A DNA stretch of 64,000 bases from Kovacikia minuta CCNUW1 (GTDB lineage: Bacteria; Cyanobacteriota; Cyanobacteriia; Leptolyngbyales; Leptolyngbyaceae): contig NZ_CP083582.1 of the NCBI RefSeq assembly GCF_020091585.1, positions 1,240,001 through 1,304,000 on the forward strand, read 5' to 3'. Positions 13,003-30,250 of the stretch are shown piece after piece (positions within the stretch are counted from its first letter, which is position 1; the number at the start of each line of letters is the position of its first letter). Both the position numbers and the translations under genes were made by a program. The notes below the pieces were generated by a model. That model did not search any database. It worked only from the letters and a program-made list of their open reading frames with translations, and was not told the origin of the DNA.

Positions 13003-14157
13003 ATGCGCCAGCTTAAGCGTTACCTTTCAGATGCCCCAAAGCCTTTGCTGTTGCAGGTTGGGATTGTTGTCCTGTTAGTGTTGCCGCCACTCTGGTGGGT
13101 GCAGCAGAACAACGTCAATGCATTGAGCCAGCGAATTGACCAATTAGAGCAGCAGATTAATAACCCGAAACTGGCGATCGCTCCCAAAGACCGACTGGCT
13201 CTAAAGAAGGATTTGGCAGGGCTGGAGAAAGATAGGGTTAGTTTACAGAACAATATTTATACGACCCTGGTTCAGGCTCTAGGAGGAGCTTTCTTCTTTG
13301 TGACCGCCTATCTAACCTGGCGCAACGTGAAGGCAACGGAGGAAAAGCAGATCACAGAGCGCTTCAGTAAAGCAGTTGAGATGTTAGGTAGTGACAAAAT
13401 AGAAGTTCGCTTGGGAGGAATTTATGCTCTAGAGCGAATTTCCAAGGATTCAGTCAAGGATTATTGGACAATCATAGAAATCCTTACAGGGTTTGTGCGT
13501 GAGCGTTCCAGATCACGTTGGGAGCAAGAAAAACCCCAATTAGGAGGCATAAAAGAAGCTACTCATCCTCCAACTGACATTCAAGCAGTTTTGACAGTTC
13601 TAAAACATCGGGCACTGTCCTATGGGAAAGGAGAAGAATATCGTCCTAACTTGAGGCTTGCAGATTTTAGTCGGTTGATTTTGCCTAAGAGCACCCTTAA
13701 AGAAATGGATCTATGGGGTGCTAACTTCCAAAACTCTGTCCTTCAAGAAAGTAAGCTCATGGGAGCCAACTTGGCTGAAGCAAATTTAAGTAATACTAAC
13801 CTTAATCTGGCTGATTTTAGTAATGCCACCCTTGCAGGAGCCAATCTTAGTGGTGCTGAAATGAGGGGTGCCGATTTAAGTGGAGCCGATCTTAGTGGCG
13901 CTGATCTTCGTGGAGTGGCTCTCAATGGAGCCGACCTTAGTGGGGCAAATCTCGAAGGAGCAGACTTGGAGGGAGCTACTCTGTGGAACACAATTCTGCG
14001 TGGGGCAAAACTGGGAGCATCAAGGAATCTTACAGGTGAGCAGATTAAACGAACTGTCATAGACCAGAAGACTGAGATCCCAGCCCATCTACTTCAGACG
14101 CGCACATCGCAATCGGAACCCTCGCAAGCAGAGCTACCAAACTCGAAGCAACCATAA
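13003..14157 (+). CDS. Membrane-anchored pentapeptide-repeat protein
   Basis: 384 residues. One membrane segment lies at about 17-33, a coiled coil at 40-85 (LSQRIDQLEQQI, LKKDLAGLEKDR), and a second membrane segment at about 95-108. Then comes the conserved cyanobacterial block ERFSKAVEMLGSDKIEVRLGG with IYALERISKDS and a WTIIEILTGFVRERS-like stretch. About 20 pentapeptide repeats (A-N/D-L-X-X) follow at 235-350, predicted to form a right-handed beta helix. It starts 3 bp after the stop of the helix-turn-helix gene, so the two are co-transcribed. The role of this family is unknown. Confidence 0.85.
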   Translation: MRQLKRYLSDAPKPLLLQVGIVVLLVLPPLWWVQQNNVNALSQRIDQLEQQINNPKLAIAPKDRLALKKDLAGLEKDRVSLQNNIYTTLVQALGGAFFFVTAYLTWRNVKATEEKQITERFSKAVEMLGSDKIEVRLGGIYALERISKDSVKDYWTIIEILTGFVRERSRSRWEQEKPQLGGIKEATHPPTDIQAVLTVLKHRALSYGKGEEYRPNLRLADFSRLILPKSTLKEMDLWGANFQNSVLQESKLMGANLAEANLSNTNLNLADFSNATLAGANLSGAEMRGADLSGADLSGADLRGVALNGADLSGANLEGADLEGATLWNTILRGAKLGASRNLTGEQIKRTVIDQKTEIPAHLLQTRTSQSEPSQAELPNSKQP

Positions 14158-18872: not shown

Positions 18873-19448
18873 ATGCGGAGTACATCTCAGAAACTCACCT
18901 TTGAAGAATACCTGGCTTACGACGATGGTACGGATAATCGCTACGAGCTAGTGGATGGGGAACTGGTTAAGATGCCGCCGGAAGATCGGATTAACTCAAA
19001 AATTGCCCTGTTCCTGTTGGCGAAGTTATTAGAGGTTTTCCCTGAAGATCGGCTGTGTTACAAAGACACGGAAATCGAGGTCAGCGGCTCTCTGGCAAAA
19101 ACGCGCCTGCCCGATCTGATGGTGTTGTCAGAAGAGTTAGCGATGATTTTGGGAGATGGGCGCGGCACCATTACCCGCGAGATGCCACCCCCTGATCTAA
19201 TTATTGAAGTGGCTTCACCGGGCAAAACGAACGAGGAGCGCGATTATCGCTACAAGCGTTCTGAGTATGCGGCAAGAGGGGTGCCGGAGTATTGGGTGAT
19301 TAGCCCCAGCGATCGCAACATCACTGTTTTCAGTTTAGAAGCGGGATTCTATGAATCCGCCGTTTACACGGGCGAAATGGTCATCCAATCCCGGTTTGAA
19401 GCATTGCGGTTGACAGCGGATCAGGTGTTGAAACGAGGACGGCTTTAG
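18873..19448 (+). CDS. Uma2 family endonuclease (DUF820), copy 3
   Basis: 191 residues, close relative of the copy at 1962-2561: [26 protein letters not shown], then the nuclease core with [19 protein letters not shown] and [20 protein letters not shown]. The predicted PD-(D/E)XK residues are present, so the fold and metal site look intact. It faces away from the upstream DUF4351 remnant and towards the large leftward operon. Target and role are unknown, as for the whole family. Confidence 0.9.
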
Positions 19449-19531: not shown

Positions 19532-20734
19532 CTACATGAAAGCAGCAACCATTGGAAGAATAGAGCCTTTTTGGCGGGTCTTTGCAGTCGAACAAACAAT
19601 CCGAAAACCGACATAGTCGAAGCGATCGCCCGGAAGATAGTAGCCGCGGTAAGCAGAACGACAAGTCACGGGAATGTTGACCCACGAACCACCACGCAGC
19701 AGCCTAGAAGCCTTTTGATCATCAGATAGCCATGCACTTCCATCAATAGGAGCACCTCCATAGTTTTTGTGCCAGTGATCTGCACACCATTCCCACACGT
19801 TCCCATGCATATCGTACAGTCCAAAGGCATTCGCTACCTTAAAGCTGCCGACATTAGTAGTCTCTTGACGGTAAATGCCCTTCGGTCCTCTGCCATAGGA
19901 ACCTGACCATTTGCCATCTTCGCTATCCGTACCATCGTAGTTTGCCAGATCTGTCGTTATCGTTTCCCCAAAGTGAAAGGGAGTAGTTGTTCCGGCTCTA
20001 CAGGCATATTCCCATTCAGCCTCACTGGGTAAACGGTAGGTACGTCCTGTATGGTCAGAAAGGCGATCGCAGAACTCCACTGCCTCCAGCCAGGACACCC
20101 GCTCTACAGGACGATCTGCTCCTTTGAAGCGTGAAAGGTCAGATTCAAGCGCCTGGTTGACCTGGGGCAACGCGGCTATCACCTGCCATTGTGCCTGAGT
20201 GACGGGATACTTACCGAAACAGAAGGTCGGGACAGTGACAGTGTGCTGTGGTCCTTCGGAGGTCGATCGCTCCAATTCATCTCCTGCAGAACCCATGAGA
20301 AAGCTACCACCAGGCAAGAGCACCATCTCTAGCTCAACCCCATCCCCTAAGTCTTCTACATAAAATTGTGCCCGGTGTTGCTGACGCTTAATCACCAGCT
20401 TGAATTGATTTTGCTGAGTCCTTATTTTATTATTTTTGAAACGCGCGGCATTGTATCGCCACTCAATTTGTCTGCGTAAGTTGTTCTTTGTAATCTTTTC
20501 GCCTAGCGCTTCGCTGAGGTCCCGCCATAATCGCGGCCCCGCATTTCGCATCAAGTAATCTAAACTGAACTGACTGTGTTCACGATGAATTTCTTTGTAG
20601 TCTTTACCCTGCCATGCACCTTGAAATACTGCCCGCTCAGCATCACTCAGGTGCTTTCTATTCTCACTTAGCAGTTCTTCAATGAACTGTAGTGCTTCCC
20701 CAGTTGGCACTTTAAGTGAAGAAATGATCGCCAT
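19532..20734 (-). CDS. VMAP-type HTH plus FGE-sulfatase domain protein
   Basis: 400 residues in two parts. Residues of about 10-95 form the helix-turn-helix found at the N-terminus of vWA-MoxR-associated proteins (LSDAERAVFQGAWQGKDYKE, then GPRLWRDLSEALGEKITKNN). Residues of about 125-385 are a formylglycine-generating-enzyme/sulfatase-modifying domain (MVLLPGGSFLMGSAGDELER, RLPSEAEWEYACRAG, LYDMHGNVWEWCADHWH, LRGGSW). Where the human enzyme has its second active-site Cys, this protein reads CRSAYR, so classical Cys oxidation is doubtful. It is a tandem paralogue of the C-terminal half of 20864-23431, 130 bp upstream. Confidence 0.88.
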   Translation of the reverse strand: MAIISSLKVPTGEALQFIEELLSENRKHLSDAERAVFQGAWQGKDYKEIHREHSQFSLDYLMRNAGPRLWRDLSEALGEKITKNNLRRQIEWRYNAARFKNNKIRTQQNQFKLVIKRQQHRAQFYVEDLGDGVELEMVLLPGGSFLMGSAGDELERSTSEGPQHTVTVPTFCFGKYPVTQAQWQVIAALPQVNQALESDLSRFKGADRPVERVSWLEAVEFCDRLSDHTGRTYRLPSEAEWEYACRAGTTTPFHFGETITTDLANYDGTDSEDGKWSGSYGRGPKGIYRQETTNVGSFKVANAFGLYDMHGNVWEWCADHWHKNYGGAPIDGSAWLSDDQKASRLLRGGSWVNIPVTCRSAYRGYYLPGDRFDYVGFRIVCSTAKTRQKGSILPMVAAFM

Positions 20735-20863
20735 AGCATAGTACTCATTGGTGTTTTCACACTTTCCATCTTGCTATCAATATATAATCTACCTTATTGA
20801 AAATTCCCTCAGTTTCAAGTCGCGATCGCGCGAGGGGAGAGGGTAAAGGGCTACCAAGAATCT

Positions 20864-23431
20864 TCACGCAGAACAGGCAACCCGAAAACCGAAATGGTCG
20901 TACCTGACGACCGCATCGTTCCTGCCACGATAAGCAGAGCGGCAGAGGTGTGGATCATTGCACCACGACCCGCCGCGTAGCACTCGGCGATCTCTCTCTC
21001 TGCTAGTTACCCAGGCACTTCCATCAATCGGGGCACCCTCATAGCTCTCATGCCAGTGATCCGCACACCAGTCCCACACATTCCCGTGCATATCGTACAG
21101 CCCAAACGCATTGGCAACACCAAAGCTACCGACTGGAGTGGTTTCCTCTTGATAGATACCCTTGGGTTCAGCGCCATAAGTGTACTCTCCATTATAGTTT
21201 GCCAGGTCAGACGTAAGCGTTTCACCAAAATGAAACGGGGTTACCGCTCCACTCCCCACAGCTTCACCTGCTCTCAAGCTTCCAGCTCTAGAAACGGGGC
21301 TTGCCCGACAAGCATATTCCCATTCGGCTTCGCTGGGCAGGCGGTATTGTTTTCCAGTGTGGCGAGAGAGACGATCGCAAAACTCCACCGATTCCCACCA
21401 GGAAACTCGTTCGACGGGGCGATCGTCACCTTTGAAATTTGACGGGTCAGGCTCAAGCTCTAGATTCACCTGGGGCAATGCTGCCACTGCCCGCCACTGG
21501 CTCTGTGTTACCGGATACTTGCCAATAAAGAATGTTGAGACAGTCACCAGATGTTGGGGTCTTTCATTATCAGAGCTTTCTGTCTCGTTTTCGGGCGCTC
21601 CCATCACAAAGCTTCCACTACGGATTTGCACCATTTCTAATGTGAACCCATTTCCCAAATTTTCAATAAAGCACCAAGCTTGCTGGCGGTGGTAATGGAC
21701 GTATGAACTTGATCTGTCTCTGCGGGCAATCCAACGAGTGAATTCATTCGGAAAGTTGTTTTTGGAAACCTTTGCTTGAAAGGCTGTCGAGAATAGTTTC
21801 CATAGTTGAGGACCTACATGTTGTCTGATATAAGCCGCGCTATTAGGGCTATCATCTGCAATTTCCTCATAAGTTTTGCGATACCAGGTACCTTCCAGAA
21901 CAAGCTGTTGATCACCATTTAAGCCTTTCCCTGTCTGGTTAAGAACGATCTCCTCAGTCTTTTTAAGAACCTCTCCAATGCCTAAAATAGTTGGAGAGAT
22001 TATTTCCCTCAATTGCTGAGAATCAATTACTGCCACTTCAAATTCAAAGGCTTGCAGGTCAATTGCTAGAAATGGATCGAATGTACTTTCAAAGTTGATA
22101 GTTGCCACTTTAAACTCAAAAGTGTGCAGGGGGGGAGTTAGATCGGAATAGTCAGCACTAGGAGATCTAGGAACAATCAAATTAATTAGATCAACTAGTA
22201 TGGGCTGCTCTACTCTAAGCTGCTCTAACTCAGTCTCAACCTCATTTCTACCCTTCTCAGAGAAAAATAGGTTGATCTCTGCAACCCCATTAGCTGTTTG
22301 ATTGGAAATGCTTTGCCTACCTGCTCCAATCTCATCTAAATTTGGAATCTCATCAATATTTAGAACCTCATCAATAATATCTCGATCAAGGATTCCATTA
22401 TTAGGATATCTGATCTCCGCAGAGAAATTGATTGTGACAGATAGCTCAAAAGACACAACCTTTTCCAATCGCTCAATCAGAGTTTTTGCCAAAATCTCAA
22501 CCGAAATCTCCCCATCCTGATCCAAAATCACCTCATGAATCTCGTTTTCCCAAGGATGGACGCTCAACCGAAATTCATGCTCCTGCTGGGAAAAGGCATC
22601 TTCAATTAGCCTCCGAATAACTTCCAGGTTTTGCTCTAAAGCCTCATAAGCAAAGGCAGTTTCTTCATCTTGAACTTCCAATCTCGCGGGATGATCCTCT
22701 GGAAGCAATTCCTGCGGTAACTGTAGCGCTATATCTTCCACAATTTGAAACGAGCGGTTTAACTGTTCCCCACTCACCTGAGATGGCTCCGTCAATACTC
22801 GCCTGACTAGCTCCGCATAGGCTAACAGACTGGCATAATCATTGAGCCGGGGGGCAAGCTCCTGCGTAATCCGAGCCAGTCGTGCCATTTCTGCTCGACT
22901 GGCAGGAGATAGATTCCCTGCCGCCTCAGTTGCAGTCGCACATTCCTGGTATGCTCTGGAAATCTGGCGCACCGCCTCTGATCGCTGGTTCTCAATGTAA
23001 ACCATCGCTGCCCACTGCTGGGTTTCTAGCTCCCGCTGATCGATGTATGGGTTATTGGCAAGCTGCCGGATGTATCGAACGATCAGGCGGGCAACCGCCT
23101 CCAGCCGATCCTGACCCAGCACCTGCTCCATCTCATTCAATAAATAGGCTTTTACAGCCGCATCCATTGCATATTGCTCAAACCCCACCGGACGGCACAG
23201 GTCAGACAGCAACAAGTCAACCTCCGCAATCCAGGGAACGTTCTCTTCCCGCAAAAATTGGTTTCGCAAATAGTTGAGCAACTCTGGCGTCAAAACCAAC
23301 GGCAGCGCTGCATGGTAAGCCAGGTAGCGGTAGGACGGCTCAAAGCGACGAACGAACCGTTCCACCCGTTGTCGAGCCTGTTCCCGTTCCTGTTCCAGTA
23401 ATGCAGCGTTACTCATACGTCTGGAGGTCAA
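20864..23431 (-). CDS. Large VMAP protein: helical N-terminus, HTH, FGE-sulfatase domain
   Basis: 855 residues. Residues of about 1-270 are a long helical region (RQRVERFVRRFEPSYRYLAY; EVDLLLSDLCRPVGFEQYAM). The middle is acidic with beta-rich repeats. About 500-570 is the VMAP helix-turn-helix (VLEGTWYRKTYEEIADDSPN, QLWKLFSTAFQAKVSKNNF). About 590-855 is an FGE-sulfatase domain with PSEAEWEYACRAS, LYDMHGNVWDWCADHWH and CRSAYRGR. Its start overlaps the stop of the vWA gene by 4 bp. In vWA-MoxR-VMAP ternary systems this third member is the variable recognition or effector component; the exact activity is unknown. Confidence 0.85.
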   Translation of the reverse strand: MTSRRMSNAALLEQEREQARQRVERFVRRFEPSYRYLAYHAALPLVLTPELLNYLRNQFLREENVPWIAEVDLLLSDLCRPVGFEQYAMDAAVKAYLLNEMEQVLGQDRLEAVARLIVRYIRQLANNPYIDQRELETQQWAAMVYIENQRSEAVRQISRAYQECATATEAAGNLSPASRAEMARLARITQELAPRLNDYASLLAYAELVRRVLTEPSQVSGEQLNRSFQIVEDIALQLPQELLPEDHPARLEVQDEETAFAYEALEQNLEVIRRLIEDAFSQQEHEFRLSVHPWENEIHEVILDQDGEISVEILAKTLIERLEKVVSFELSVTINFSAEIRYPNNGILDRDIIDEVLNIDEIPNLDEIGAGRQSISNQTANGVAEINLFFSEKGRNEVETELEQLRVEQPILVDLINLIVPRSPSADYSDLTPPLHTFEFKVATINFESTFDPFLAIDLQAFEFEVAVIDSQQLREIISPTILGIGEVLKKTEEIVLNQTGKGLNGDQQLVLEGTWYRKTYEEIADDSPNSAAYIRQHVGPQLWKLFSTAFQAKVSKNNFPNEFTRWIARRDRSSSYVHYHRQQAWCFIENLGNGFTLEMVQIRSGSFVMGAPENETESSDNERPQHLVTVSTFFIGKYPVTQSQWRAVAALPQVNLELEPDPSNFKGDDRPVERVSWWESVEFCDRLSRHTGKQYRLPSEAEWEYACRASPVSRAGSLRAGEAVGSGAVTPFHFGETLTSDLANYNGEYTYGAEPKGIYQEETTPVGSFGVANAFGLYDMHGNVWDWCADHWHESYEGAPIDGSAWVTSRERDRRVLRGGSWCNDPHLCRSAYRGRNDAVVRYDHFGFRVACSA

Positions 23432-24510
23432 TCCTCATGCAGATGAGCAAGGGGTTGTCCGCGCACAATATCAATCACATTACCAAATCCATCCTCATCC
23501 ATCTGTTGCATTCGGACAAGATAGGCAATCACCTCGGCAGACGTGGCTTGCCAGCGATCGACAGGCATCGGGTTTAACCAGCCAATCAGATTGGTTCGTT
23601 GCTTGAGCTGTACCAGAAATTCTGTCGTTGCCCGAATCCGTTCCATCCGGCGATAGCCCCTGGCGGCTCCCGCATCACTCACAACCAACAGACTGGTATC
23701 AGCATCACACCCAGCGATCACCGCTTCCAAAGGCACTGGTTGAGTCAGACGAGCATCCTGATACACATAATCATCCGGCACGTTATGGAAGTAGTAAATC
23801 GCAACCCGCTCCAGCTTTCCTTCTTCCTGAACCGTCTCTACCAGATCCCGCGTAAAGCGATGGAAGGGAGTCATAGAGCCATCCTGGTCAATCAGCAGCA
23901 GTAGCTGAGCATGGTTCACCTCCCTACGACGATAGACCGGAGCCAGGAAAAACCCCTGACGGGCAGCCTGCTCCACAGTCAACTCAATATCCAGCACATC
24001 CGCTGGACCATCTGCAACCGGACGCCGCAGGTAACGCCAGATGTAAGCCATCGAACGGCGAGAGACGGGTAGATAAACGTGTAAGTCAGGGGTATTGTCA
24101 ATATCGATGGGAACGTAGGGCGATCGCACAGGTAAAGGAGTCAGGGTCGGAGCCAGATCCTGCTCAGGCGGGGGAAGTTCCGGTAATGGAGGCGGTAGCT
24201 GCTCAAGGGGTTTGGGTGGGTCGGGTAACGGGGTTTCGTCCTTTTGCTGCTGGGTCGTCTCTCTCAAAGGCGCTGGCGAAAAGTCTGCACTGATTGCTTC
24301 CCACATCACAGCAAACTGGCTTTGCTCGGCGATCGAATGGCACCAGAGCAACAGCAAAATCAGTCTGAGGGCATCCAGGCTGTCAGCACCCATTCCCCCT
24401 CTTACAGCATCCACCGCAGCCAGATATTCGCTGATACCCAGATTGAAGCCGTTCTTGCGTAAACGGCTAAAGACTGGCTCCAAAATTTGCTCTGGGTTAA
24501 ACTCACTCAT
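23428..24510 (-). CDS. vWA domain protein of a vWA-MoxR-VMAP system
   Basis: 360 residues. A helical N-terminal region (residues 1-75) is followed by a proline-rich linker (92-135, including LEQLPPPLPELPPPEQDLAP). A von Willebrand A domain starts near 200; its metal site reads DQDGS at 208-212 in place of DxSxS. SDAGAARGYRRMERI and LVQLKQRTNLIGWLNPMPVD are typical of this vWA group. The gene overlaps both neighbours by 4 bp (ATGA). It is expected to pair with the MoxR ATPase and present or restrain the VMAP protein. Confidence 0.87.
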   Translation of the reverse strand: MSEFNPEQILEPVFSRLRKNGFNLGISEYLAAVDAVRGGMGADSLDALRLILLLLWCHSIAEQSQFAVMWEAISADFSPAPLRETTQQQKDETPLPDPPKPLEQLPPPLPELPPPEQDLAPTLTPLPVRSPYVPIDIDNTPDLHVYLPVSRRSMAYIWRYLRRPVADGPADVLDIELTVEQAARQGFFLAPVYRRREVNHAQLLLLIDQDGSMTPFHRFTRDLVETVQEEGKLERVAIYYFHNVPDDYVYQDARLTQPVPLEAVIAGCDADTSLLVVSDAGAARGYRRMERIRATTEFLVQLKQRTNLIGWLNPMPVDRWQATSAEVIAYLVRMQQMDEDGFGNVIDIVRGQPLAHLHED

Positions 24511-25475
24511 GAGGCAGACGCATGCTTTTGCCAGTCAGCCCGTAGCTTAAACAGCAACTCTCGGTAGGGAACTGCCTGAGGCGACTTCAGTTTCGATACC
24601 GCATAAGGTTTAGCACCAAAGTTCTGTAAGGCATCGACCCAATCTAAAAATTCACTGGTGCCCGGAATCTTAAACAGTCCCCCCGTCCTGCGGATCTCCA
24701 GGAATCGATTAGCCGCAGCCTCTACTAATTTTTCCGAAGGGTGGGGAGTTTCTGTCTGATGGGAATAGTGAGCGGTGACAATCTCGCGTAGGCGCTCTGA
24801 ACTATCCGGGAACTTGAGAAAATAGTAGATACAGCGTCTCAGAAACGGGAACGGCAGATTCCCCTTTTCTTTATTGCTGGTGATAATGACGATCGGTCGA
24901 TGACTGGCTCGAATTTTGGCTTCACCCGTCTCACCCGTTTCGGGAATTTCAAACTCCCACGGTTCATCCAACACTGCCAGAAGGTCATTCGGAAAGTCTA
25001 AATCAGCCTTATCGATTTCATCAATCAGAACCACCGCTGGAACGTCTTTCAGACCGAATGCTTTACCCAACGCTCCAAACTTGCGGTAATCCTTAGGGTT
25101 AGCTGGATCGCGATTGAGTGAAGTGCCCGTTTCCCTTGCCTGAACATCATGCAAGCGCAAAATCGCATCATATTCGTACAGCCCTTCCCTTGCCTTACTG
25201 GTAGAGCGCACATCCCAGCGATAGAACGGCAACCCCAACTCATGGGCAACCGCAGCCGCCAAGCGTGTCTTCCCACATCCCGCCTCTCCCTCCAGTAACA
25301 AAGGACGCCTGAGATAAATTGCCAGATTGACCGCCTGAATTAACTCCTCGTTGGCAATATAGGGTTCTGCCTTTTGAGGCGAGTCCTTGTGAGGCTTCTT
25401 CGGACGGAGGCTGAGATCACCCCGAAATGTGTATTGTTTAGTGGAATTCATAGGCTCGGCTTTCTCGTGGCTCAA
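24507..25475 (-). CDS. MoxR-family AAA+ ATPase
   Basis: 322 residues. Walker A GEAGCGKT at 63-70, Walker B VVLIDEIDKA at 148-157, sensor-1-like ITSNKEKGNLPFPFLRR and arginine-finger region RRCIYYFLKFPD. The length and layout fit MoxR ATPases, which work with vWA proteins as chaperone-like remodelling pairs. The start overlaps the previous gene by 4 bp; an internal Met at residue 9 (MNSTKQYTF) is possible. It sits between the iSTAND gene and the vWA gene in a tightly overlapping operon. Confidence 0.93.
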   Translation of the reverse strand: MSHEKAEPMNSTKQYTFRGDLSLRPKKPHKDSPQKAEPYIANEELIQAVNLAIYLRRPLLLEGEAGCGKTRLAAAVAHELGLPFYRWDVRSTSKAREGLYEYDAILRLHDVQARETGTSLNRDPANPKDYRKFGALGKAFGLKDVPAVVLIDEIDKADLDFPNDLLAVLDEPWEFEIPETGETGEAKIRASHRPIVIITSNKEKGNLPFPFLRRCIYYFLKFPDSSERLREIVTAHYSHQTETPHPSEKLVEAAANRFLEIRRTGGLFKIPGTSEFLDWVDALQNFGAKPYAVSKLKSPQAVPYRELLFKLRADWQKHASAS

Positions 25476-26476
25476 CTAACCAACTTAGACATCTCATTCA
25501 TTAACTCACTATGAACATCGTTAGGTCTTCCTTTTGCAACTCGATGAATTGATTGAGCCATCTGCTTCATATCGGCAACCTGAATATTTAACCCTGAAAA
25601 CTTGACCAGCCAATTGTGGATTTCCGGCTCTGTCCAATTTTGCAGCGGCAATTCCAAAATCTTTTCTCCATGAAACGTCTGTTTCCTACAGCAAAGGGAA
25701 TTGGGCAGGGAATCTTTTGGCAAGGAGTCACGCACCATTAAAACGGCTATCAGCCGAATCAAAGGATGCTCATGACACAAGCCCGATAACCTTCTCACTA
25801 ATGGGCACCAGAACTGGTTCACAAACCAATTGAGAAAGTCATCTTGGGCGTGAAGAGAGTAAATCTCAATTTGAATATAAAAAATGTTCCCTCGACGCAG
25901 CGAACCGCAGATGCGATCGACAATCATATCCAGATACGTTTGACTATCTCCTGGAGCCTGTTGAACCTGAAACTTTTCTGCTAAGAAGTTCAGGAAAAAT
26001 TGGGGACGGGTCTGCTGGTGTGATAAAAACTCAAATTCACAGGGAGGGTACATTTTCCCCAAATCTTGAAGCTGAGATTTGATATTTTTGGCACACCACT
26101 TTGCTCCCATAGATCGACTGTTTTGCATCAGAAAGAGAGCCGCTCCCTCTTTGTTCTCAAACTTATTAAGAATACTTGTGATAATTTTATTGGCTTTTAT
26201 AAAATTAATCTTTGGTAGCTTTTCTTCCCATTCGGTGGAATAAGCTCTATAGGAGTCTGCATCACTACTTCCTGAAAACTGAAACTGTTTGATTTCTGCC
26301 TCAATTTCCTGAATTTCAACCTCTAGATTCCGAATAGAATCTCTAATAGGAACTTTATCTACTTCATTCAATGTGCCAGATAGCTGGGTATACAAAGCCT
26401 TATATTTTTGAACTAAGCTTTCTAAATATTTTTTCTTCTCTCCAATCAATGGTTGACTATTAACCAGACTTGTCAT
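25472..26476 (-). CDS. iSTAND protein with N-terminal effector-associated coiled coil
   Basis: 334 residues. Residues of about 14-65 form a helical domain (KKKYLESLVQKYKALYTQLS, then VPIRDSIRNLEVEIQEIEAE) that is recognisably the same as the C-terminal domain of the protease encoded next upstream. From about 80 on there is an inactive-STAND-like domain: ALFLMQNSRSMGAKWCAKNI, EFEFLSHQQTRPQFFLNFLA, and a late RVAKGRPNDVHSELMNE. I see no Walker A motif, consistent with iSTAND. In published systems such proteins dock onto effectors through matching effector-associated domains. Confidence 0.75.
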   Translation of the reverse strand: MTSLVNSQPLIGEKKKYLESLVQKYKALYTQLSGTLNEVDKVPIRDSIRNLEVEIQEIEAEIKQFQFSGSSDADSYRAYSTEWEEKLPKINFIKANKIITSILNKFENKEGAALFLMQNSRSMGAKWCAKNIKSQLQDLGKMYPPCEFEFLSHQQTRPQFFLNFLAEKFQVQQAPGDSQTYLDMIVDRICGSLRRGNIFYIQIEIYSLHAQDDFLNWFVNQFWCPLVRRLSGLCHEHPLIRLIAVLMVRDSLPKDSLPNSLCCRKQTFHGEKILELPLQNWTEPEIHNWLVKFSGLNIQVADMKQMAQSIHRVAKGRPNDVHSELMNEMSKLVS

Positions 26477-26492
26477 AAGTAACTATTCTCAA

Positions 26493-27371
26493 TCAGTTAG
26501 ACAATTGGTTCATCTGCTGCTCTACCTGTGAAATCTCACTGTCTAGAGCCTTAATTTGTTCTCGAATGCTTATTGCATCAGCCTGACTCAGCATGTAATT
26601 TAACTGGTTATAAGCCGCCTCATACTTGGCACAGAGAACCGAGTAGTTCTTCTTAAGCGCGTTCAGCTTAACCTGGCGAAACGAGGGTAAAGTGTCCGTT
26701 GAGTCCTTGACTGAAGGTTGCTGAGATGAGATCCTCTGCTCCACATCTGACCAGGCAGAACTGAGAACCGATGTCGGAATCATAAATGCCGCTTTGACAT
26801 TTTCCCGCCGCTTTTCGGCTGCCACCGCCATCCCCACCACCCCTTGCAGCGATTCATCCCACACAAGCGCACCACTAAATCCAGGCTCTACCTGATAACC
26901 CGCTGCCTTAATATCTTCTATCTGTATCCAGCCATTTGCCCGCTGATCGCGCAGAACCCCACTTGCCCAAACTCCCTCATCATGCCCCTTCGGAAATCCA
27001 AAAATCCTGAAAGGGTGCCCCCAGTAATCACTCGTTTTGAGCAGCCGGACAGGTTGAACAGCCTCATGGGACGTGTCTTCCAGCTCCAGCCCCGCGATAT
27101 CTTCCCCTAACTGGGACGGATTAACAGGTTGCCAAAATTTCACGATTGCCCTCTTCCGTTGCCCTGCGGCAACCAGTGGAAAATCGAGTTCGATCGCTCC
27201 ACTAGGTATCTCTTGGGTATTCTGAGGAAGACCGAGCGCAACCGTCACTACATGAGCACAGGTGAGAAGTTGGCGATCCGATATCAAAAACCCCGCTCCT
27301 ACAACCGCGTTTCCCTGGTAAATGCGGGCGATCGCTGATCTGAAACTGCGAATGTAATTCTCTGGGGACAT
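26493..27371 (-). CDS. Trypsin-like serine protease with C-terminal effector-associated coiled coil
   Basis: From the ATG at 27371 (MSPENYIRSFRSAIARIYQ) the product is 292 residues; longer readings run into the previous gene. The protease part has the His of TCAHVV (residue 40), an Asp in GEDIAGLEL and a Ser in GFSGALVWD, so the triad looks complete. Cytoplasmic, since no signal peptide precedes the domain. The last 55 residues (LNALKKNYSVLCAKYEAAYN, then ISIREQIKALDSEISQVEQQ) match the N-terminal domain of the iSTAND protein. I infer an immune-type protease effector activated through that shared domain. Confidence 0.87.
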   Translation of the reverse strand: MSPENYIRSFRSAIARIYQGNAVVGAGFLISDRQLLTCAHVVTVALGLPQNTQEIPSGAIELDFPLVAAGQRKRAIVKFWQPVNPSQLGEDIAGLELEDTSHEAVQPVRLLKTSDYWGHPFRIFGFPKGHDEGVWASGVLRDQRANGWIQIEDIKAAGYQVEPGFSGALVWDESLQGVVGMAVAAEKRRENVKAAFMIPTSVLSSAWSDVEQRISSQQPSVKDSTDTLPSFRQVKLNALKKNYSVLCAKYEAAYNQLNYMLSQADAISIREQIKALDSEISQVEQQMNQLSN

Positions 27372-27384
27372 AGCACACCGATTC

Positions 27385-27715
27385 CTAATCCTCTTTCCAC
27401 TTGAGGGTAATTTCAAAGTTGACATCCCCACCCACTGAAGCGATGATTGCCCCTGCCTCAGCACTCAGACTTCAGACCAAACTTGACCTCAACCTCATTA
27501 GCAGGTGTCGTCAATCCCCTTTTCAATTTAGAAATCAACACGGAAGCCACAGGCTTCACAATTTCAATCGCTTCTTCAAAGGACTCCCTCGCCTGAAGCA
27601 CCATTTGCCCTGTATCGATGGCAACCCGTTCAACTGCAACCCCTTCGGGTTCATCAACTTCCACCAGAAATTTAGTGCCATCCTCTAGAGAGAACTGAGC
27701 AATTTCCTTATCCAT
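27385..27715 (-). pseudogene. Trypsin-co-occurring (CU044_2847-like) protein gene with a frameshift
   Basis: The frame from the ATG at 27715 reads DKEIAQFSLEDGTKFLVEVD, later FEEAIEIVKPVASVLISKLK and EVEVKFGLK, and then stops at 27458. Skipping the single base at 27469 continues it as LSAEAGAIIASVGGDVNFEI and TLKWKED to a stop at 27385-27387. This is the normal ending of CU044_2847/trypco1 proteins, small partners that accompany trypsin-like proteases in conflict systems. The base could be a true mutation that disables the partner, or a sequence error. It sits 13 bp before the protease gene. Confidence 0.8.
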
Positions 27716-27896
27716 TGACTCCTGACTCCCGATTCCTGACGCCTTCCCGTTGCCGCAATCGCCGGATGAAAGACCGGATCACCTGCCGTTTACTCTCCTG
27801 ACGCGATCGACAGTAATCCTCCAAAACCTGGTACTCACTCTCCGGTAACTCCACCGTCAACCGCTTAACTGGTTCAGCAGACACCTTTCTGGACAT
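27708..27896 (-). CDS. Ribbon-helix-helix regulator heading the leftward conflict operon
   Basis: 62 residues: KRLTVELPESEYQVLEDYCR then SRQESKRQVIRSFIRRLR, a clear ribbon-helix-helix arrangement. It overlaps the trypsin-co-occurring gene by 8 bp and is the first gene of the leftward operon, so it probably represses that operon. A similar protein heads the divergent operon at 28147. Confidence 0.8.
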   Translation of the reverse strand: MSRKVSAEPVKRLTVELPESEYQVLEDYCRSRQESKRQVIRSFIRRLRQREGVRNRESGVNG

Positions 27897-28125
27897 GGAT
27901 TACCCACAAAACTCATGCATCGCACCCACCATAGCACCTGCATTCAGCAACGGGTAGAGGCAACCACCATAATTATTCTTTCTTCACTTTTTGGGTTAGC
28001 ACTCTACTTAAACCACGTCATCACCCAAAAAAGTGACTTCAACGATCGCCGCATACTTCTCCCCCAAAGTGCCCATCCAGCAATACAGGTATCGATTAAA
28101 TCCCTTACAATAGTTGGCTAGTTCC

Positions 28126-28144
28126 GTAACTCGTCGTCAGTTAC
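28126..28144. promoter_or_regulatory. Inverted repeat GTAAC-N9-GTTAC before the divergent RHH gene
   Basis: Arms at 28126-28130 and 28140-28144, ending 2 bp before the ATG at 28147. It sits in the 250-bp gap between two divergent genes encoding related ribbon-helix-helix proteins, and is a plausible operator for one or both. Confidence 0.4.
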
Positions 28145-28146
28145 AT

Positions 28147-28329
28147 ATGGCAACCACTGAGCAACGAAAGGTTGAGCACCTCAACGTCCGGCTCCCCGTC
28201 TCCGAAATGGCAATCCTGAGAAACTACTGCGAAGCCAATCAGCGATCGCAGTCCGATGTCATCCGCGAATTTATCCGCAGCCTGAGTGCAGCCGTCAACC
28301 CCTCCTCCACTCTTCCACCAGATTCATGA
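28147..28329 (+). CDS. Ribbon-helix-helix regulator heading the rightward operon
   Basis: From the ATG at 28147 the product is 60 residues: KVEHLNVRLPVSEMAILRNY then QRSQSDVIREFIRSLSAAV. It is similar in layout to the divergent protein at 27708-27896 (strand, then two helices, with V-IR-FIR in helix 2). Its stop overlaps the next ATG by 4 bp. Probably an autorepressor of the rightward operon, perhaps cross-acting on the leftward one. Confidence 0.8.
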   Translation: MATTEQRKVEHLNVRLPVSEMAILRNYCEANQRSQSDVIREFIRSLSAAVNPSSTLPPDS

Positions 28330-29078
28330 ATCCTCCTCTCAGTGGCTCCTTGGAGACTGGAAATAAGTTTCCCAACTGTGTATCCTTCAAGCTGCATTGT
28401 ACCCCCGTTCAATCCCCGAATGGTTCTGCACTAGGGTTTCAAGCATTAGAGACTGTGCTTACTACTCCAGCGGTCGAACAAATTGATTTGAAACTGACGA
28501 TCCGGTTTGGTAAGCAGATCATCAAATTTCCTGGGGGTACTGTCGAATTTGGCTTGAAGCGAGGGGAACTTGCTCTCCGGTTCTGGAATGGCAAGATGCC
28601 TATGGAAAAAGTGCAGTTGAAATTCGATTTTCTCAAAGCTTTGGAAGTGGAAGACCAACGGGAGTACGGTCAGGAATTGGAGGGAGTGATCGCGGTAGCT
28701 CCGGGAGTAAAGATAAAGGATGCGAATAAACTTTCCAGTAAGACGAAGCGATCGGTTTCTCAGGTGCATAATCGCGGTACGGAAGAACAACCAGTATGGG
28801 AGTTTCAAGCTCACTCCAGCCAAGACCCCCCTATTTTGCTGGGACAATTGACTAGAGAACACCTTGGTACTGTAGAAATGGCAGGAACCCCCTGCTCTTG
28901 CACCGCCATCTTCACAATTCGGAACCAAAACGATTTGTATCTGTTTGACGCGAGTGGACTGATTTCCGGTAAAAACCTGAGCCGTAATCAACTCGCCTTG
29001 ATAGAACGGAAATTCTTTCTGCGCTTTATTGCACCCAAGCTTCAGCCTCATCTAAGTCAAGTTGAGGAGGTGTTATGA
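28326..29078 (+). CDS. Conserved hypothetical beta-rich protein
   Basis: 250 residues, no recognised domain. The first half alternates strands (IDLKLTIRFGKQIIKFPGGT, VEFGLKRGELALRF), the middle holds a basic stretch (NKLSSKTKRSVSQVHNRG), and the last third has CSCTAIFTIRNQNDLYLFDA. There are no membrane segments. ATGA overlaps on both sides couple it to the ribbon-helix-helix gene and to the pentapeptide protein, so the three act together. Function unknown. Confidence 0.65.
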   Translation: MNPPLSGSLETGNKFPNCVSFKLHCTPVQSPNGSALGFQALETVLTTPAVEQIDLKLTIRFGKQIIKFPGGTVEFGLKRGELALRFWNGKMPMEKVQLKFDFLKALEVEDQREYGQELEGVIAVAPGVKIKDANKLSSKTKRSVSQVHNRGTEEQPVWEFQAHSSQDPPILLGQLTREHLGTVEMAGTPCSCTAIFTIRNQNDLYLFDASGLISGKNLSRNQLALIERKFFLRFIAPKLQPHLSQVEEVL

Positions 29079-30250
29079 GTAACCCTAGCTTTGAAATTAG
29101 CCCGGAAGAATTCCAAGAATTTCAAACTCTGGTGCAGCAGGTGGAATCTGCTAAAACCGACGACTTCATCCAACTTGCGGCAGTTCTGGGAATCAATCCC
29201 AAAAGCGATCTCATTGGTGCTGACCTCAGCCAGGTTTACCTTTACGATGTCAATCTCAGCCATGCCGACCTTAGCGGTGCCGATCTCAGCGGTGCCAACC
29301 TCAGCAATGCCAACCTCAGCAGTGCCATCCTCAGACGTGCCAACCTCAGCGGTGCCATCCTCAGCGGTGCCACCCTCAGTGGTGCCACCCTCGTCAGTGC
29401 CAGCCTCAGCGGTGCCAGCCTCAGCGGTGCCAGCCTCAGCGGTGCCAGCCTCAGTGGTGCCAGCCTCAGCGATGCCACCCTCAGCGGTGCCGACCTCAGA
29501 CGTGCCAACCTTATCACCGCAACCCTCAGCGGTGCCGACCTCAGACGTGCCTATCTCAGACGTGCCTATCTCAACTTTGCCAACCTCAACCGTGCCAACC
29601 TCAGTGGTGCCGACCTCAACCGTGCCATCCTCATCGGTACCAACCTCAGTAGTGCCAACCTCAGAGGTGCCAACCTCAACCGTGCCAACCTCAGAGGTGC
29701 CGACCTCAGACGTGCCGACCTCAGACGTGCCGACCTCAGACGTGCCGACCTCAGACGTGCCGACCTCAGATGTGCCGACCTCAGCGATTCCATTATCGAT
29801 TTCAATACCCAGATTTCAGATAAGTGGCGGCTAGTTCATCAACTAATTAATCAGGGCACACAAGATAGAAACCTCAGCGGTGCCGACCTCAGCGGTGCCT
29901 ACCTCAGTGGTGCCTACCTCTTCGATGCCAACCTCAGCCGTGCCAACCTCTTCAATGCCAACCTCAGCCGTGCCAGCCTTAGCGGTGCCAACCTCAGTGA
30001 TTCTGATCTTAGCGATGCTGACCTTAGCCGTACCAACTTCAGCCGTGCCAACCTTAGCGGTGCCAACCTCAACCGTGCTGACCTCAGCGATGCTGACCTC
30101 AGCCGTGCTATTGTGATGCAATGCCGATTTGGGATAGGTATCGGATTGAGAGAGACCGAAAAAGTTGATTTGCAACGGCGGGGAGCCATTTTTGATGATG
30201 CAATGGGCGATCGCGCTTCCTCTAGTTCCCCTGTCCCCTCACGCCGTTAA
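29075..30250 (+). CDS. Pentapeptide-repeat protein with near-identical 15-bp DNA repeats
   Basis: 391 residues. A 45-residue helical lead-in ([20 protein letters not shown]) is followed by two blocks of A-N/D-L-S/R-X repeats: residues of about 47-238, then a short spacer ([14 protein letters not shown]), then about 265-350. Such proteins form a beta helix, and some mimic DNA to protect gyrase. Repeats are almost identical at DNA level (CTCAGCGGTGCC units; three exact tandem units around 29417-29461), suggesting recent expansion by slippage. It is the last gene of the rightward operon. Confidence 0.88.

Follow-up and report, generated by a model that had tools for sequence, protein, structure and literature searches.

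In multicellular bacteria, ternary systems are predicted to serve as switches for immunity or cell death, and the literature on them, as far as its text was available, consists of predictions, expression data and resequencing, with no test of mechanism found in it. The class with an iSTAND protein as third component goes back to Kaur et al. (2020, eLife, PMC7159879), and the arrangement with a separate vWA-L gene was treated in a 2021 eLife paper (PMC8195603). These two Kaur papers were the only literature found in which iSTAND appears together with a diversity-generating retroelement (DGR). In the accessible text of Dore et al. (PMC10907252), a VMAP domain is reported for some cyanobacterial DGR loci only; iSTAND systems with DGRs may account for part of the DGR loci without one. 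Here an operon of this known, predicted class is described from the cyanobacterium Kovacikia minuta CCNUW1 (8.56 Mb in three contigs, completeness 100, contamination 4.11). It lies at positions 19532-27896 of a 64,000-nucleotide stretch of contig NZ_CP083582.1, referred to as the window.

The operon almost certainly represents a single ternary conflict system of the MoxR-vWA-iSTAND type whose output is proteolytic, as judged from its anatomy and from conserved gene order. A first-pass annotation had instead read it as a vWA-MoxR-VMAP system joined to a protease/iSTAND pair in a run of seven to eight genes. The run itself was recovered, as eight open reading frames (ORFs) that all lie on the minus strand. 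Pfam searches upheld the Trypco1, trypsin-like protease, iSTAND and vWA proteins, the last being of the CoxE type, and the ATPase matched AAA+ models, its MoxR type following from alignment with relatives (Table 1). Membership is clear for iSTAND (PF19995, 56.4 bits against a cut-off of 24) and for the CoxE-type vWA protein (PF05762, 42.7 bits against 26.4). The VMAP reading was dropped, as a search of all eight proteins gave no VMAP match at E<=1. A genome search with VMAP-C (PF20028) was also empty, which shows nothing because the same search was empty in all 14 controls. Since no VMAP protein was found and the iSTAND protein occupies the VMAP slot, the locus is read as one system and not two. 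The observation was confirmed in part and its interpretation supported in part: a conflict-type operon acting as one unit stood, and a relay of NTPases gating the protease is plausible. The annotation had missed the effector-associated domain (EAD) EAD9 at the C-terminus of the protease and the N-terminus of the iSTAND protein, as well as the hypermutation-type C-termini of both FGE proteins.

Conservation of gene order was assessed with the MoxR alignment as query, and the best 80 of 457 relatives were kept; the counts are therefore conditioned on MoxR. These loci, which we take to belong to Cyanobacteria, Chloroflexi, Gammaproteobacteria and Acidobacteriota, include several already among L027-L041. 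Loci were scored only where the contig left room (at least 900 bp upstream for iSTAND, and at least 1500 bp and 3500 bp downstream for vWA and for vWA-L/FGE, respectively). iSTAND precedes MoxR in 55 of 72 loci, and no iSTAND was detected at the profile threshold in the other 17 (L071, L130-L135, L137, L138, L140, L142-L146, L148, L149). A vWA gene is present in 70/72. Among the 47 iSTAND loci with room, vWA-L sits on an ORF of its own in every one, a fused FGE domain is found in 41, any FGE in 43 and a separate FGE gene in 24. The co-occurrence check proposed with the first-pass annotation thus held for iSTAND, MoxR, vWA and vWA-L, which stand together in most loci with room, and failed for trypsin and Trypco1. 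In one locus (L080), vWA, vWA-L and FGE lie in a single 950-amino acid (aa) ORF, which reads as a natural fusion of the vWA and vWA-L-FGE genes of the operon; its contig ends before the upstream gene.

The same order was seen from the iSTAND side. Homologs were found in 8/42 genomes of the order and in 8/386 genomes sampled from the phylum, own genome included in both; in one of the latter eight (G230) the match is weak and lies in a frame with stops. In 15 fetched neighbourhoods, iSTAND is followed by MoxR, vWA, vWA-L and FGE as far as the contigs reach, except that L027 lacks FGE, the iSTAND gene of L034 is split, and trypsin and Trypco1 are often missing. A contig search with the single iSTAND protein gave 21 pattern stretches, none of which was confirmed. 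The recurrence of the core order in relatives is more than chance. Separately, one contig (L116:2454-12376) carries two tandem iSTAND-MoxR-vWA-vWA-L/FGE sets.

Other catalogued families were considered and set aside. PADLOC gave partial matches only (RT-Protease_XI at 1e-7 on the trypsin part, IetA on the P-loop, PDC-M35A, and others weaker), and the NCBIfam models MadB (84 bits, cut-off 475) and MadC (15.8 bits, cut-off 600) are distant and far below cut-off. SAV_2336_NTERM reached 59.5 bits on the vWA protein, against a cut-off of 200, and gave a weak match at the start of vWA-L (E 0.004); a literature search for SAV_2336 gave no paper.

The active-site residues of the protease and of MoxR are kept. 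His71, Asp122 and Ser197 of the protease are present in 8/8 aligned sequences, window included. In MoxR, Walker A (GEAGCGKT) and Walker B (LIDE) are intact, and G66, G68, K69, T70, D152 and E153 are invariant across 15 rows. DxSxS is the usual metal site of vWA domains; in an alignment of 12 vWA proteins, D208, G211, S212 and T272 are kept and the first serine of this motif is replaced. The iSTAND protein is poorly conserved (29% mean column identity) and was modelled with a mean pLDDT of 88.9. Its model matches Cdc6/Orc1 (Z 14.8, rmsd 4.4, 231 residues), the plant NLR NRC2 (Z 12.8, rmsd 4.0, 216 residues) and further AAA+ proteins, among them TnsC and RFC (Z about 12). Weighing against this assignment, the Foldseek TM-scores are low (0.30-0.45 on the query). 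EAD9 was modelled as two long helices.

The enzyme ahead of the iSTAND gene varies between loci. Trypsin and Trypco1 occur in 7/42 iSTAND loci that leave 2800 bp or more ahead of MoxR, or in 10/58 when all iSTAND loci of the MoxR scan are counted. Ten upstream proteins picked from the 37 trypsin-less loci comprised CHAT (five), TIR (three) and DUF4062 (two) proteins, and EAD9 was found at E<=0.001 in eight of the ten (L074 below cut-off in both tallies). At L101, CHAT is fused directly to iSTAND. On this evidence from sequence, the trypsin is optional, one choice in a swappable enzyme slot before iSTAND, whose proteins mostly end in EAD9.

According to the text available from Kaur et al. (PMC7159879), EAD9 is among the EADs that recruit signalling components. 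The two copies at a locus were compared with one another. Out of 63 iSTAND loci, 41 had a same-strand upstream gene, as did the window; 16 had no such gene, and six had no iSTAND ORF at the stricter cut-off used here. An EAD9-like stretch was found in 31/42 upstream genes and 35/42 iSTAND proteins, and in both at 30 loci. Over these 30, the scores of cognate pairs summed to 4064, and none of 20,000 permutations went above 2430. In 16/30 loci, the window among them, the cognate partner ranked first, and in 26/30 it was in the top three, with identities from 0.89 (L083) to 0.19 (L087); the window pair ranked first, with an identity of 0.38 over 50 residues. A smaller test placed the cognate first in 7/14 loci (one masked sequence, L093). 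Two points count against a pairing code: the permutations ignore kinship between genomes, and at L081, L105 and L087 the cognate ranked only 13, 8 and 16.

At the other end of the operon, the large FGE protein (P7) consists of vWA-L (aa ~8-281), a low-confidence insert within 283-448, a helix-turn-helix (HTH)-like module (477-570) and FGE (599-852). In a model of aa 1-599, vWA-L is confidently helical and the HTH-like module is confident, with pLDDT below 50 for residues 283-396 and 410-448; the insert is absent from 29 aligned relatives. No PDB match to the vWA-L region was obtained at E<=0.001 with the 599-residue multi-domain model as query, and because this was the only model searched, the fold is not claimed as new. 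Both FGE proteins had been annotated as HTH-FGE. The FGE part was confirmed, and the HTH-like module (~85 aa; window 20449-20734 and 21722-22003) is present in both, N-terminal in the second FGE protein (P8) and internal in P7, without a convincing Pfam match. The module also occurs near the N-terminus of seven other own-genome proteins (L168-L171, L173-L175), three of which were scanned; two matched NB-ARC (L171 above cut-off, L168 below it) and the third AAA_35. In relatives it was found inside eight vWA-L-FGE proteins (95 loci searched).

A common frame, RGGSW...CRSA.R...GFR, runs through the FGE C-termini of relatives and varies at fixed positions; in several loci these C-termini are targets of a local DGR. 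A local DGR was found in 5 of the first 15 loci, with reverse transcriptases (RTs) carrying GLPIGNLTSQ. Differences between variable region (VR) and template fall mostly at template adenines (L030, 12/16 and 13/16; L035, 10/11 and 10/12; L036, 12/12; L040, 13/15 and 12/15; L041, 18/23 and 11/14). In the MoxR scan, a DGR RT was found in 7/36 iSTAND loci with at least 7 kb downstream, with corresponding counts at L101 (13/16, 12/16), L102 (11/12, 9/10, 15/16), L104 (17/17, 18/19), L105 (16/17), L122 (19/21) and L136 (10/12, 11/13); L097 is the same contig as L040, where the template shows. Outside the 36, the counts were 13/17 and 4/12 (L094), 16/18 and 12/18 (L107) and 17/18 (L146). In five of six scored comparisons between close relatives (three involve L041), VR identity was 0.50-0.66 compared to 0.82-0.94 elsewhere. 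On the opposite side of the balance, L078 and L081 show no VR excess (0.97 and 0.97), the L085/L090 comparison could not be scored, and no RT lies within the stretch examined at 29 of the 36 loci. In L040 and L041 the RT cassette stands between two FGE genes; in L039, of the same genus, these are separated by a gap of about 50 bp (14032-14084), which parallels the gap between the two FGE genes of the window.

Both FGE proteins of the operon are very probably former DGR targets, now without a DGR. Each carries a VR homologous to DGR templates of relatives (Table 1). Against the L104 template, the amino acid differs at 10/12 AAY codons in P7 and 11/12 in P8, compared to 2/20 and 3/20 at other codons. 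Changed codons end in C or T in 9/10 (P7) and 11/11 (P8), compared to 401/818 and 168/346 in the remainder of the two genes. P7 and P8 share 19/32 VR residues and 149/216 FGE residues outside the VR, a small contrast. A similar pattern, though fainter, is seen in own-genome FGE relatives at C1:2595430 and, least clearly, at C2:993364; a fifth lies at C1:1521958. A search of the genome with both VRs at E<=0.001 returned no template, the matches being to the P7 and P8 genes and to further FGE genes. Nor was a DGR RT found: the best own RT scored 98 bits, where five full-length DGR RTs from the order reach 573-607 bits, and no window ORF matched the RT profile at E<=1. Taking 185 bits or more as the line, DGR RTs occur in 7/42 genomes of the order and in four of its eight iSTAND genomes (G006, G010, G011, G022). 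RVT_1 matches four places in the own genome, of which two seem to belong to a single interrupted gene. At C1:4223139-4224932 (L007, L008), an RT gene with a PQGLSISN motif, not of the DGR type, is apparently interrupted by a transposase-like ORF. Because no DGR was found in the genome, the specificities of both FGE proteins are probably fixed today.

Some of these data temper the case for a DGR footprint. Of ten usable templates, L104 favours the footprint most, L094 and L146 having been dropped for motif misfit. Across the ten, uncorrected P values ranged from 6e-5 to 0.1 (P7) and 3e-5 to 0.02 (P8) in the codon test, and from 0.002 to 0.1 (P7) and 3e-5 to 0.08 (P8) in the single-base test. 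The absence of a DGR rests on one assembly, and it is equally possible that the operon was acquired without a DGR or that it lost one.

Taken together, the explanation we prefer, and regard as reasonably probable, is that FGE senses, a vWA/MoxR/iSTAND relay transmits, and an EAD9-docked trypsin executes. The two FGE proteins, which have a C-type-lectin fold, would be sensors of an invader, binding it through their variable C-terminal surface, and would owe their diversification to a DGR that an ancestor or donor carried. Ligand binding would alter the vWA-L/vWA complex, which the MoxR ATPase would then remodel, freeing or re-orienting the catalytically dead STAND protein. The protease, docked on iSTAND by EAD9-EAD9 pairing, would turn active and harm or kill the cell ahead of invader spread. 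Trypco1 and the RHH-like protein would probably restrain or regulate the protease. We infer this sequence, from FGE sensing through vWA-L/vWA/MoxR/iSTAND to protease firing and cell death, with its direction, from FGE sensor to enzyme effector, only slightly favoured. FGE is placed at the sensing end because that end is near-constant and hypervariable and the enzyme end is swappable.

The direction could be reversed, as Kaur et al. hold in the text available, with iSTAND sensing and the vWA-L/FGE end as effector. Put forward in PMC7159879 and PMC8195603, as far as those texts could be drawn on, this account would have iSTAND sense foreign nucleic acid, the EAD9-docked trypsin cut vWA-L, and the freed FGE bind and neutralise the invader. 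The resemblance of the iSTAND fold to Orc/Cdc6 and the poor conservation of iSTAND count for this account. In some relatives the C-terminus of vWA-L carries caspase, TIR or NB-ARC-TPR, which fits an effector end and counts against sensing by FGE. Against the reversed order, hypervariation sits in what is, for C-type lectins, the ligand-binding part of the fold. In iSTAND loci the FGE end is also near-constant (43/47), and the upstream slot swaps enzymes known from cell-death systems. Dore et al. (PMC10907252), in the text available, take DGR targets to be sensors, and report the reverse order of Kaur et al. With these points on the other side, the reversed order is unlikely, though it has to be taken seriously.

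A DGR was not found in the genome, which could also mean that the system has decayed or been domesticated, with FGE now recognising a fixed self ligand in a stress or development switch and not in defence. This is improbable: the ORFs are intact, the active-site residues of MoxR and protease are kept, and the local RT is lacking at those 29 of 36 other iSTAND loci too. That Trypco1-trypsin-EAD9-iSTAND and MoxR-vWA-FGE are two independent adjacent systems, as the trypsin genes at only 7/42 loci might suggest, is highly implausible when iSTAND precedes MoxR in 55/72 loci, EAD9 ties enzyme to iSTAND, and iSTAND-first searches agree with the MoxR-conditioned scan.

Under sensing by FGE, the output may extend beyond the protease. 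A second MoxR/vWA system is encoded elsewhere in the genome (C1:2564137-2570470; L183:6138-12471), with a caspase, a third component, MoxR, vWA and a vWA-L-FHA-TIR-EAD9 protein, its vWA-L called by profile. Its third component gave no match to the iSTAND profile. EAD10 was below cut-off on the caspase and the third component and strong on a downstream protein. The EAD9 that ends the TIR protein (C1:2564167) is the only one in the genome besides those of the protease and the iSTAND protein. Alignment scores were 95 for protease/iSTAND, 66 for protease/TIR and 53 for iSTAND/TIR; the TIR protein may therefore dock on the EAD9-iSTAND of the operon, because both of its scores exceed the shuffled maximum (52 in each case). 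Since the TIR protein ends in the adaptor of the operon, one sensor set could fire protease and TIR. Tentatively, DGR-made FGE receptors may have become fixed as germline-like innate sensors with no mutator, with the EAD9-matched set able to fire both.

The features of the operon are listed in Table 1. The first-pass annotation had noted ATGA overlaps of 4 bp; the length is right for three junctions, and ATGA itself occurs only at MoxR/vWA, with TTGA at iSTAND/MoxR and vWA/FGE. The two overlaps upstream of the protease are 8 and 7 bp, and the spacer ahead of the second FGE gene, given as about 130 bp, measures 129 bp. The protease gene has a possible alternative start at aa 32 (27371). The ribbon-helix-helix (RHH) regulator claimed at the head of the operon is supported by only a weak match; the 62-aa protein is a possible autoregulator, and no ORF of at least 60 aa in 15 neighbourhoods matched it at E<=1e-3, a limit under which shorter ones could be missed.

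Table 1. Features of the operon, in window coordinates.
Feature	Position	Strand	Evidence
Small RHH-like protein, 62 aa	27708..27896	-	RHH_9 E=0.028, below cut-off
Trypco1 (trypsin-co-occurring domain 1)	27458..27715	-	PF19493 3.8e-11
Trypsin-like serine protease, C-terminal EAD9 aa 261-321	26493..27464	-	Trypsin_2 1.1e-11, EAD9 5e-13
EAD9-iSTAND, third ternary component	25472..26476	-	EAD9 1.6e-9, iSTAND PF19995 6.2e-15
MoxR-type AAA+ ATPase	24507..25475	-	AAA 7e-8, AAA_5 1.1e-6
vWA protein, CoxE type	23428..24510	-	PF05762 5.8e-11
vWA-L-FGE protein (P7)	20864..23431	-	FGE 1.6e-53; alignment of 30
VR of large FGE protein, aa 819-850	20882..20977	-	homologous to relatives' DGR templates
Second FGE protein (P8): HTH-like module aa ~11-97, FGE aa 136-380	19532..20734	-	FGE 1.1e-54
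VR of second FGE protein, aa 347-378	19601..19696	-	homologous to relatives' DGR templates

Divergent from the operon, on the plus strand at 28114-30250, lie genes for an RHH_1 protein, a 250-aa protein without a Pfam match at E<=0.01, and a long pentapeptide-repeat protein. A Uma2-family putative restriction endonuclease (18873-19448, plus strand) adjoins the other end.

This locus makes three matters testable: the direction of signalling, where a near-constant, hypervariable FGE end, opposite an enzyme end that swaps, argues for FGE as sensor; a code of EAD9 pairing, by which the enzyme that docks on a given iSTAND would be predicted; and the fate of a hypermutated receptor once its mutator is gone. 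The systems it resembles most, as far as the available texts describe them, are the iSTAND systems of Kaur et al., which share MoxR, a CoxE-type vWA and iSTAND, an EAD on iSTAND and on the adjoining trypsin, FGE/FGS as the commonest C-terminal domain, and a gene of its own for vWA-L and the domain at its C-terminus. The operon differs in having EAD9 as its adaptor, a second HTH-FGE gene, and a vWA-L insert absent from the 29 aligned relatives. None of the scans brought up a model called iSTAND2. A separate vWA-L is given as a minority arrangement of iSTAND systems in PMC8195603, whereas it was found in 47/47 loci of the MoxR-conditioned sample. The VMAP ternary systems (Kaur et al. 2020) have in common with it the MoxR-vWA core, Trypco1-trypsin, FGE and a link to DGRs; in the operon, iSTAND stands where VMAP would be, and no VMAP protein was found. 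The loci of Dore et al. (2024, PNAS) likewise place FGE/CLec beside MoxR, vWA, Trypco1 and trypsin and are read from sensor to effector, but the accessible text does not use the word iSTAND, and a DGR was not found in the genome of the operon. In Nostoc punctiforme, Npun_F4885-F4892 (PMC12691664) comprises, by locus tags, CHAT, MoxR, VWA, two DGR targets and an RT; four of these genes are reported as co-expressed, with low-level adenine-specific mutation. The gene between CHAT and MoxR, Npun_F4886, is unnamed in the text available and is predicted from its position to encode iSTAND. Unlike the operon, this locus has its DGR in place.

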